Origin: Chloranthus sessilifolius
Lineage: Eukaryota > Streptophyta > Magnoliopsida > Chloranthales > Chloranthaceae
DNA: 64,000 bases
Direction: 5' to 3'
Assembly (NCBI GenBank): GCA_021018995.1
Contig: CM037587.1
Coordinates: 3,102,866-3,166,865, forward strand
Part shown: in pieces, positions 19,679 through 58,600 of the stretch
Numbering within the stretch: the stretch's first letter is position 1
Layout: the number at the start of each line of letters is the position of its first letter
Notes under the pieces: model-generated
Told to the model about the DNA's origin: nothing
The model's input: the letters and a program-made list of their open reading frames with translations, nothing else
The model's database searches: none
Translations under genes and position numbers: made by a program

Positions 19679-22600
19679 GTAAGTCATTTACATTCAATTT
19701 AACAAAATTCTATTTGAATTATTAGTTTCGGTTTTTGTCCTGAAAGCTTATTGTGACCGAGTTTTCTGTATTTCTTGGAATTGTATTTTTTTCATCTCCA
19801 TTGATTTTTATTTAATTATTCATTAATCCAATTGGCTATAGGTCAATATGATTTGTGCTCTAGATAAGAGCATTGAAAATGCAGATATCCTTGAAGCCCA
19901 TTTGTTTAAAGAAGCTTGCATGTGCCGTAGATATCTAAATGAGTCTCTTTGCATAACCAACCTTACTGAACAGAGCCTATGGAAATGCAAAATCTAGTTT
20001 CATATTAGATAATTGGAACCACCTATTAATATTCTAAATTGGTAATGATCTTGTTGAACATCTAATCATGAAAGCTTGTAACATTTTCAAGAGATGTTCT
20101 CATTATTTAGCATAAGTACATATCTAAAAAGAAACTAATAGGCCAATGATGGATTGAGAATTCTGCAATCCATTTGAATTGTGATTCTACGTTGGAGAAA
20201 ATTTTGAAAAGGGGTAATTCTTTTAAATAAAAGGTTGCACATATGTTCTCTTCTTTGCTCTTAAATGCATCCCTTAAACATACTATATTTTCAAAGACTT
20301 ACAACCAAGGTGTCAGTATCAGTATTGGGTATCGGCCGATACGGATACCGTATCACCGGTACTATATCGGTACATTTATTTTTGAAAATAAGGAAAAAGA
20401 ATAAATAAAAAGGTTTGTATCGGTCAATATCGGCAGATACTGAGACGGTATCGGCCGATACTGACCAGTATCTGTCCGTTATCGATACTGATACCAAGGG
20501 GTGGTATAGGTATCCGTTCTCGACGAAACCGATACTTAACGGTATTGACGGAATTTTGATACCACGCTTACAATACCTCTTATGCTATTTTTTACTAACA
20601 TGGGAAAGTGATATGACAACACTCTGGCAAAGCTCTGATGAACAAATCCCTCAAAAAGTAGCGTGGATTATTATCTCACATTTGGTCTTTTCAGTATTAT
20701 AAGGACAAATCGTCTCTTTTGAACACAGCAGATGGAGACTGGTATTTGGATTTTTTTTTTTATAACTTTAAATTCACCCACTGAATCTTTGAGGTTACAC
20801 ACAATTAAAACCCATTAACTGCTTTGAATCAGACGATGGAGATTATTTTTTGGCCCAATCTTTCAAACGATGGATCTTGAGATCATGGGCGTACCATCAG
20901 CCGGTCAATTTTTTTATTTCACATTGCACCCATCCCGAAAAAAATTGATCTTAACAACACGTGGAACATCGCGTTCAGACCTGATTTTAAAGTCACTCTT
21001 TGGGGATGTGTGCCACGTGAAGTAAAAAAATTGACTGTTTGATGGTACGCTCATGATCTCAAGATCCATCGTCTGAAAGATTGGGACGAAAAACGAACTA
21101 CATCAAACCAGTCAATGGGTTTCAGCGTGGGTGAACTCAAAGATTCGGTGGGTGAATTTAAAGGTACTCTTTTTTTTTTTTTTTGCTGCAAATAGTACTT
21201 TAAAAGAGCAGGGAACAGGATTAGTACATATCAAGTCCTTGTCTATAAATAATGCCCATGGATAAATTGAGGTATACCTTATTTGTCCCCCATGTGTACC
21301 TTAACCTTCATGTGATCCTGATGTATCCAGCATATGATTCTAAGGGAGGGGCTTCTTGTTTCTTGTTTACTTTACTGCATAGTTACAACAAAAGATACTC
21401 TGCCAGTTTAGGTTGTCATTTGTCAAGGCAAAGGGTTATCTATTATATAGTTTATGAAAAGAAACTCCTTGGAAGTGATTTTGATATTGGCTTGTTGAAC
21501 TATTTTCTAGTAGTTCAATTTTATTCCTCAGACTAATGGTGGTCGAACTATGGTGTGGTTGCATCAAAAGATAGCAATATGCATCCTTAGCCAAACATTT
21601 ACTACACCCTGTTGCGAAAGGAACTTAAGTGCTTTTTCTCATCCATACAAAAAAGCCAGCAATAACTTATCATTGCAAAAGTTGGAAAAGATGGTTTAGT
21701 TTTTTTTTTTTTTTGATCAGTAATAAGATTATACAGAAACCAGCAAGGCGCTGAAGCCGTATACAATCAAGCGACACAAATCAAAACATAGGCCTATCCC
21801 TAAGAACAACGCACACCACTTAGGACCCCACACATAAACCCGGGTCCCAAGAGAAATTGTGGCTGCTGTCCTGACCTCCACGCTCACCCCAGAAGGTAAC
21901 AAGCTCCATGATCGCCCTAATAACCATTCCGACAGGTTTGGTTTTGGCTTCGAAAATTCTACGATTCCTCTCGCACTAGATGCTCCACAAGACGGCGAAA
22001 ATTGCTGCCCGCCAAGGCCCCTTATCCCCCCCTTCCACCTTCGCCGCCTCCCAACTCAACAGGAGCACGTAAGGAGACTGTGGCATCACCCAGGACATAC
22101 TGAAGGCTCTAAGGATGGCTCCCCAGACCTCATTCGCCGCATGGCAATGAAGGAAGAGATGAGCGATGGACTCCGCCCCGTCGGAACACATAACACATGT
22201 AATCGAGACGTCAATTCCCCTTCGAATCAGCTGGTTCTTGATAAGTATTTTATCCTTACACACCGCCCAACAGAAAAATCTGATCTTGAGAGGGAGGGGA
22301 ACCTTCCATAACCAGCTCCCCTCGAAACTGATGAGCGGTCGGCGTGATATCCACTGGTATAACGCTTTGACGTTAAACTTCTCCTCTCGATTCAGGTCCC
22401 AAATCCTTTGATCAGCCCTGATATCATTCCGCTACGCCGCATATAACCTACTCAGCAAATCCACATAGCACCCTACCTCGCTGTCCCTGAGGCATCTTCT
22501 AGTGGCAACATCCCAGATACTCCTCTCACCGACAAAGGACACAAACTCGTCAATCCTACCACCCGGGTTCAAGGAAAGGGCATAAATTCCCGGAAACATA

Positions 22601-55600: not shown

Positions 55601-58600
55601 GAACCATTGATCATGTATGCCATGATCTTGATGTATTTTGGGATGTTTAACCCTTGGAATCAAAATCTGTCTGCTTAATGGTATGCCTATAATCCCAAGA
55701 TCTATTGTGTCAAATTTTAGGAAGAAAGATTTCTTCATCGTATGATTCAAAACAGTCAATGGCTTAATGTATGTGAAACCCGAGTCGAAAAGAAAGAATC
55801 ATTGGTTGTAAATAAAGATACCCTAATTATCGCGTGACCGATCATAATGCATTCATGACAAGAGAACCTTTATTTGCATAACCGAATTAGAAGAATAATC
55901 TTTGGTTGTAAATAAAGGCCCCCCCTACGCTGAAAATCATTGAATGGATCAGACGCTAGAGTTTTTCGTTCCAATTAATCTTCCACTAGCATCAGGCGGT
56001 CAATTTTATTCCGCGTGACACAAATCTCCAAAAGTGATTCGAACATCACATTTGAGCGTGATGTGTGTCACGTGATTTTTGGGTTAATTTTGTAGTATCA
56101 GTAAATAGACTATCTAATGGTACACCCGTGATATCAAGATCATTTGTCTAAGATTGGAATGAAAATGATCTCCAGCGTATTATTCAAAGCACCCAATAGT
56201 TTTAAGCGTAGGTGCCTTCCAAGATTTGCTAGACGCAAAAATAAAGGGTACCCTTGGGACCATAGCGACCAAACCTATGTTTTTTTCGAAAAATTCCCGT
56301 GTTAAAAAAAAATGAATTTTGATCCCTTTTTTTCCCGAAAAATACGTCTTTTTTCCTATTTAAAAACCCTTATTTGGTCAAAACATGTATATTTTTTATT
56401 TTTTATAATTATTAATAATTTTTTTATTTTCGTAATTTCCCGCTTTTTTTTTCCTAAAATTACCCAAATTTACCGTTTTTTCGTATATTTTTGGAGCCGT
56501 TTTATTCTTGTGCCTATACTTGGTCACTATGGTTGTGACAACCATTGAGAGAAGACGAAATAGTCCTGTTGTCCAATGGTAACTCTATTTACAACCCAAT
56601 ATTTTTCTTTCTTAACTTGAGTTTTATCTGCTTTAACTGTTGGTTGCTTTAAATCAGATGATGAATATCGTTTTCCTTTCGAATCTTTCACACAATTGAT
56701 CTGGTGACCATGAGCCTACCATCAAACAATCGGATTATTATTCCAGATGGCACATATCCCAAAAAGTTAACATAATCATGAGTGCACATCAACATGGTTC
56801 TTAGACCACTTTCCGAGATATGTGTAATATGGAATCAAAATTTAATGTTACCACATGCATTATATATATATGAGAAGGGAAAATGTATTTAAGTGTAGTG
56901 TGAAAATGAATACCATGTCACATGCCACGTCATACAAGTCCCTCTATAAGAGTTCACCAGCTCCCTTTAGTTTTTAGAGAAAAATAAATAAAAATCCACA
57001 TGTAAGGCCGTAATGTAATGGGCCAAAGGTATTAGTTTTCTTTTGAAAAGATTTCACAATTCATTTGAAACACAATTGACCACGTTGTCAACGATGTAGA
57101 CCATGGCATGGGTCTAAATATTGTTCGATACCGATACGTATTGGAATCCCCCCACCCCTACTCTCCGGTATGATACATTGCATATGTATCATCCAAATTA
57201 TCGGATGATACAACCAAATTATTAGTTGTATCGTCCAATAATTTGGTAAATTGAAATTATCGGACAACAAATTCAATTTATCATCCGATAAGTTCGAAGT
57301 ACCAGATACACTGATTTTTTAAATTATCGAAATTGTCAGCCAAAGAATTTCGATAATTTGAAAGAATCGGCCTATACGACTGATAATTTGATATTATTGG
57401 CTGATAATTTGACGGTAAATTGATTAATGTTTCAGCAATATATCGGCCAATACATCAATATATTGGCCGATACATCAATGTATCAGACGATACAAATGAT
57501 GCTTATTGGTCTGGGCCAGACCAATATGTACCCGGAAAACCGAGATTTTAATCCATTGTGCAGAAATAGTTTTTCTTTTTACGGTGTCTGATCGAATTTG
57601 TGCATGTGAACATGGCAGCCAACTGGCTTGAGTGTAGCGCCGAGTGCACATCTCTGGACCTCAGGTGTGTGTTTTTTGCGTGTGATGTACACTTGCAAAA
57701 ACCCACACTCATTGTTCTGGACATCTCTGTAGTTTATTTTAAGTACACACGAGCACAAAAGTTGCTGTTAATTAATTTTTGTTGTCTGGAGTCTGAAAGG
57801 TGACAGTTGAGATATAGTAACTTAGTAAAGCAAATGGCACACCAGTTGATGATGAATTCTCAAGACAGAGGCCTACTTTTTAGTACCTCGAAGCCTCATT
57901 TCATTACCTCTAAAGGGATATCATGTTTTTATTATTATTATTATTATTTTTATTTTTTTTTATGTGGCTTAGGTTTTATGTAGTTCACCAAAAAAAAAAG
58001 ATATCATGGGTTTTTCATTTTATATTTTCTTGAAATTTTGTCTGTGCTTTGTCATGGCCATGAAAAGTGGTGTAATAATGATTCCCACCTCTACCCATCC
58101 GGTGGCCCCGCAACCATCTCCTCTCCATATCTTCTCATGATTTCGGGTCTTCAACCATGCAGAGTTATAATGTTGTAGCCCAACTTGTTATTTTTAGTTG
58201 GTAGTAGTGTTTTCTATCATCTTGCCTTATTGCTGAAAAGGAAAAAGTTCTCTTGGCAGGGATAAGGCTTACTTTGTGGATCTTTTTGTGAGAGCATCCA
58301 ACTTGCCTGCCATAAAGATGTATGAAAAGGTCGGTTTCTCCTTACTGATTGTCTATCAATCTCCAACAACTTTATTCATGTTATGCAACTTTTATTATTC
58401 GCAGCATTTGAAATTGTACCTGGACACTGATTTTGATCTGTCACCATTAAGATTATAATAGTATTTTTCCGTAGTAGGGGATGGGTGCCTAGCAACAGGG
58501 TACTACTCGCTAGTATTTTCTGCCTTCGCTGACACAGAAGCGTAGTCACAAAGTCAAGAATCGGCAATAAATCAGCAAGGGTCTAAGTCGGGAAAAATCA

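Follow-up and report, generated by a model that had tools for sequence, protein, structure and literature searches.

A 38.6-kb transposon-filled intron in the NAA20 gene of Chloranthus sessilifolius

A stretch of 64,000 nucleotides from Chloranthus sessilifolius, hereafter the window (C4:3102866-3166865, where C4 is contig CM037587.1 of assembly GCA_021018995.1; 2.17 Gb in 32 contigs), contains exons 3 to 6 of an NAA20 gene (Table 1). A genome-wide tblastn search with a plant NAA20 protein matched exon 3 (E value of 2.2e-18) and located exons 5 and 6 within the window as well as exons 1 and 2, which sit 1.6-1.9 kb upstream of the window start. The listed matches of the genome searches all lie on contigs C1-C15. 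The six exons lie in order on the same strand and span about 61.5 kb. Their joined coding sequence of 525 bp encodes 174 amino acids in a reading frame that is open over its entire length. The five introns are 149, 21,139, 38,581, 968, and 93 bp in length, and all of them have GT-AG ends and keep the reading phase. Exon 3 ends in GACAAGAT, directly followed by GTAAGT, and TTGGCAG lies directly 5′ of exon 4. A sequence-only reading of the window had joined a 133-bp exon at 19546 in phase to a 70-bp exon at 58260 across a 38.6-kb GT-AG intron, and the ends, the phase, and the length were all confirmed. It had also noted that about 57 N-terminal residues are missing from the 19.5 kb before exon 3, and had forecast a long upstream intron. 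In those 19.5 kb there is indeed no convincing match for these residues, and the forecast was borne out by the position of exons 1 and 2 and the length of intron 2.

NAA20, the catalytic subunit of NatB, forms a complex with NAA25 and acetylates proteins starting with Met-Asp, Met-Glu, Met-Asn, or Met-Gln. The conceptual product matches human NAA20 (7stx) over residues 1-172 with an E value of 4.3e-65, while its best NAA10 match has an E value of 1.8e-18. Over its full length, the product is thus nearer to NAA20 than NAA10. It has a GNAT acetyltransferase domain (PF00583; 67.7 bits against a cut-off of 20.7), and 159 of the 174 positions are identical to a plant NAA20. In an NCBIfam search, seven acetyltransferase models matched, every one of them under its cut-off. 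Judged from its sequence, the split gene is NAA20, the gene of the NatB catalytic subunit, and it looks functional, in agreement with the earlier reading.

What fills intron 3? Elements were delimited by self-comparison, Pfam matches, and target-site duplications. The intron 3 insertions and remnants listed in Table 1 total 26,550 of the 38,581 bp, or at least 69%, which is a lower limit. Insertion in place is indicated by target-site duplications for the two L1 elements, the solo long terminal repeat (LTR), the gypsy element, and the two miniature inverted-repeat transposable elements (MITEs). It is also indicated for the two MITEs and the 1.94-kb insertion by empty sites in a collinear, partial copy of the gene on contig C2. 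For the copia and gypsy remnants of intron 3, neither duplications nor empty sites were observed. The 15-bp and 17-bp duplication words of the L1 elements occur twice each in the window, at the flanks of the elements; the last six bases of the 15-bp word are T and lie next to poly-T.

Table 1. Features of the NAA20 locus and its partial copies. Positions are those of the window unless a contig is named.
Feature	Position	Strand	Details
NAA20 exon 1	C4:3100954-3101031	+	Outside the window, upstream of its start
NAA20 exon 2	C4:3101181-3101271	+	Outside the window, upstream of its start
NAA20 intron 2, part in window	1..19545	+	21,139 bp in total; starts 1,594 bp before the window
Gypsy-type LTR element of intron 2	5880..12817	+	Reverse transcriptase (RT) and chromodomain frames; sense; LTR pair at Kimura two-parameter (K2P) distance 0.060; target-site duplication imperfect
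NAA20 exon 3	19546..19678	+	133 bp; tblastn
NAA20 intron 3	19679..58259	+	38,581 bp, GT-AG
L1-type long interspersed nuclear element (LINE)	21706..27880	-	DUF4283, RVT_1, zf-RVT; 15-bp target-site duplication at 21691 and 27881
Copia remnant	28515..36381	+	RVT_2 piece at 35418-35693; outer ends approximate
Solo LTR (TG..CA)	29801..35158	+	5-bp duplication AGGAG; within the copia remnant; broken by an L1
Second L1-type LINE	30484..34784	-	RVT_1; within the solo LTR; 17-bp target-site duplication at 30467 and 34785
Gypsy LTR element	39924..47284	-	Gag, RT/RNase H, integrase, Tf2-type SH3; 5-bp duplication AAAAG; LTR pair at K2P 0.077
Remnants of gypsy RT (+) and copia RT (-)	47836..50660		Also in the C2 partial copy
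MITE	50702..50885		8-bp duplication GCACTCAT; empty site in the C2 copy
Second MITE, same ends as the first	51199..51392		8-bp duplication with one mismatch; empty site in the C2 copy
Unclassified insertion, 1.94 kb	54964..56907		Not in the C2 copy
NAA20 exon 4	58260..58329	+	70 bp
NAA20 exon 5	59298..59358	+	61 bp
NAA20 exon 6	59452..59543	+	92 bp including the stop codon
Partial copy of the NAA20 3′ half	C2:22034721-22063325		Near 22.06 Mb (L022, L035, L036, L049)
Partial copy of the NAA20 3′ half	C4:4460516-4460916		At 4.46 Mb (L023, L054, L055)

The copia remnant contains an approximately 900-bp tandem duplication and is broken by the solo LTR, which in turn contains an L1; three nesting levels are therefore present within intron 3. 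The sequence-only reading had described at least four transposon classes nested up to four levels. The classes stand (L1, gypsy, copia, and MITEs), but a fourth level could be shown only if the intron itself is counted. Some labels are weak: an L1 endonuclease piece scores 17.9 bits against a cut-off of 24.5, the chromodomain of the intron 3 gypsy element 19.5 bits (under the cut-off of 25.1), and the gypsy RT piece at 47.8 kb 28.5 bits (Pfam cut-off 29.6), while several short copia-like pieces have no Pfam match. The MITEs are called hAT-like from their 8-bp duplications only, and the strand of the solo LTR was assigned solely from a TATA-like motif. Both L1 elements, the intron 3 gypsy element, and the copia pieces at 49.8-50.7 kb are antisense to NAA20; the copia remnant at 28.5-36.4 kb and the gypsy piece at 47.8 kb are in sense. 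The idea that all coding transposons of intron 3 are antisense was dropped because of these copia and gypsy RT pieces on the + strand. At 42078-42581, the integrase region of this antisense gypsy element includes a 252-bp tandem duplication (97%), where Pfam matches two integrase zinc domain stretches. The 1.94-kb insertion contains a 116-bp unit repeated three times (55047-55394).

The age of the two gypsy elements was estimated from their LTR pairs at two rates, which are given side by side with neither preferred. The substitution rate of 1.3e-8 is the value for grasses; it gives 2.3 My for the intron 2 element (K2P 0.060) and 3.0 My for the intron 3 element (K2P 0.077). At a rate of 1.51e-9, quoted in the accessible part of PMC8626473, the same distances correspond to 20 and 25 My, respectively. 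The partial copy on C2 adds a relative order. The two MITEs and the 1.94-kb insertion are missing from the collinear C2 stretch and thus most likely entered after the duplication that gave rise to it. The decayed copia and gypsy pieces between 47.8 and 50.7 kb were already in place before it.

Does the genome have another NAA20 gene? At the DNA level, exon 3 is found in a single place in the genome, while the DNA around exons 5 and 6 is found in three (all three candidates scored). The search with the protein yielded 17 matches. Six of them, on C4, are the NAA20 gene itself, three belong to the two partial copies in Table 1, and the remaining eight are either weak or to other N-acetyltransferase-like sequences. 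The C2 copy is collinear with window positions 47450-60807, apart from its own insertions of about 11.7 and 5.5 kb, and a single base is deleted from its exon 4. For the copy at C4:4.46 Mb, the 3 kb seen show no match to exon 4. Both copies lack the same segment, deleted from window 59373 to 59523 and comprising the greater part of intron 5 and of exon 6. Since this deletion is common to both, they are related by copying after it had occurred. A second gene at either place was rejected; no relative of exons 1-3 was found there or elsewhere, and the deletion affects both. Thus, in the DNA and protein searches of the 2.17-Gb assembly, no second intact or compact NAA20 was found, only two partial, damaged copies.

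Six of the eight other matches, on C1 and C10, show 32-38% identity to the NAA20 query and are open over each match. Five form a cluster at C1:172731359-172812664 (L011-L013, L015, L016) and one lies at C10:2302558 (L010). They are perhaps an expanded NAA10-like family. Near the 3′ end of NAA20, a repeat of about 420 bp in intron 4 (58543-58965) has relatives of 73-79% identity on many contigs (40 scored among 2283 first-look candidates). Downstream, a 66-residue open frame on the - strand (59814-60011) resembles the terminal exon of a neighbouring gene in tail-to-tail orientation, and a piece of it is also present in the copy at C4:4.46 Mb. Scans of the window with Rfam (at gathering scores) and ARAGORN gave no matches.

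Exons 4 and 5 differ from the C2 copy at 5 of 130 sites, and four of the five differences are synonymous. Five mostly noncoding stretches differ from the same copy by K2P 0.091-0.120. In a Poisson comparison, which is a small sample, P ranges from 0.002 to 0.02 with the noncoding rate used. The conserved open frame of 174 residues is the stronger argument for constraint. It also bears on whether the gene here is dead and a compact functional NAA20 is absent from the assembly. The searches took in one assembly and scored first-look candidates only, and dying genes also carry heavy transposon loads. However, the frame is open across six exons with every splice dinucleotide kept, the exons have changed less than the noncoding DNA relative to a copy that is itself frameshifted, and the CCT and MCM genes of the same genome have long introns as well. 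A dead gene is therefore highly improbable. Rather, it is very probable that repeated in-place insertions of transposons have enlarged two of the five introns of this gene, the sole intact NAA20 recovered from the assembly.

Several observations weigh against this conclusion. First, AAAAG and AGGAG are frequent words in the window (150 and 64 occurrences). Because they are so common, the duplications of the gypsy element and the solo LTR rest on their position at the LTR ends. Second, the sense strand of intron 3 has 11 GTAAGT and 37 AATAAA words, and mis-splicing or early polyadenylation is thus possible. Third, intron 3 is longer than all 72 gaps sampled in other conserved genes (see below). 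Fourth, the stretches at 19.7-21.7, 27.9-29.8, 35.2-39.9, and 47.3-47.45 kb have neither a duplication-flanked insertion nor a bridge to C2. These four stretches would be where a misjoin of exons 1-3 and exons 4-6 from separate places could lie, and repeats, the usual site of misjoins, part the two halves. Nevertheless, the window is free of any N, and the single intact exon set found keeps its order, strand, and phase. By their target-site duplications, the two L1 elements, the solo LTR, and the gypsy element sit in DNA that was formerly uninterrupted, and the right part is collinear with C2. The duplications and the collinear copy speak against a misjoin, which is exceedingly improbable; the check proposed in the sequence-only reading gave nothing that points to one.

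Is such an intron unusual in this genome? CCT chaperonin genes (PF00118; 60 of 81 matches) and MCM genes (PF00493; 38 of 38 matches) served as a baseline, although recent duplicates or pseudogenes may be among the loci sampled. For exons adjacent in the profile (n = 46), the median gap is 483 bp and the longest is 26,651 bp; ten gaps reach at least 5 kb and four at least 10 kb (11-27 kb). In 26 looser gaps, where small exons may be hidden, lengths go up to 38,452 bp. The length of intron 3 is in line with the tail of intron lengths in this genome. Four CCT-like genes span about 50 kb each (C7:59681060-59733534, C13:38311430-38365673, C3:113107984-113162459, and C9:30308660-30362243); each has a largest gap of 25-38 kb between its matched exons, and small exons may have been missed in three of the four.

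Similar introns have been reported in other plants. In the portion of PMC8626473 available, LTR elements are the major contributor to long introns in Chloranthus spicatus and magnoliids, genes longer than 20 kb account for 876 of 2,184 orthologs, and a length of more than 40 kb is mentioned for Chloranthus, ambiguously per intron or per gene. The NAA20 intron is alike in being long and rich in transposons, but two of its largest insertions are LINEs. According to the excerpted text of PMC9364684, many introns in gymnosperms exceed 20 kb and contain LTR elements or LINEs, as at the NAA20 locus, with a seemingly minimal effect on transcript accuracy; their genomes are called ultra-large there, compared with 2.17 Gb here. 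In Arabidopsis, NAA20 is AT1G03150, as given in an extract of PMC8761761, and its intron sizes presumably differ from those here. Since gaps of 11-27 kb occur in other conserved genes of this genome and long transposon-rich introns have been published for plants, the NAA20 intron is ordinary. The transposon-swollen intron is real, of a known kind, and a good but ordinary example.

How might the gene be expressed? RNA polymerase II would transcribe about 61.5 kb, and the exon 3 donor AT/GTAAGT would be joined to the exon 4 acceptor TTGGCAG/GG by ordinary splicing. Within the transposons, splice sites and poly(A) signals would have to be kept silent, most likely via heterochromatin on the insertions and a pathway of the IBM2/EDM2/AIPP1 type, by analogy to Arabidopsis. 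There, as described in the available sections of PMC10241880, this pathway suppresses poly(A) sites at heterochromatic intragenic transposons. The Arabidopsis genes are alike in that transposons within transcribed genes are read through without early polyadenylation, but over several kb as against tens of kb at NAA20. The insertions themselves would most likely be neutral or slightly harmful passengers with no role in NAA20 function.

Alternatively, intron 3 may be a selected regulator, in which heterochromatic insertions set NAA20 dosage via early polyadenylation or an intragenic LTR promoter. The intron does contain a solo LTR and sense-strand remnants, and the same sections of PMC10241880 report that RPP7 and PPD7 are polyadenylated early in Arabidopsis mutants losing heterochromatic marks on intronic transposons. 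However, this genome has many long introns and no gene-specific cause is needed, so that selection of this kind is very unlikely. Likewise very unlikely, and speculative, is a heterochromatic brake formed by the two giant introns, under which full-length NAA20 would be produced only while chromatin on the insertions keeps early polyadenylation suppressed. If this were true, global N-terminal acetylation would follow the epigenetic state of transposons.

Neutral or slightly harmful insertions into a gene that is probably still spliced remain the preferred explanation, and this example alone leaves current knowledge unchanged. Its value lies in a short conserved protein whose 525 coding bases are spread over about 61.5 kb with no backup copy found, and in insertions that can be ordered using a partial copy on another contig. 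The NAA20 locus is a clear case for asking how splicing in plants copes with tens of kb of mixed and nested transposons.

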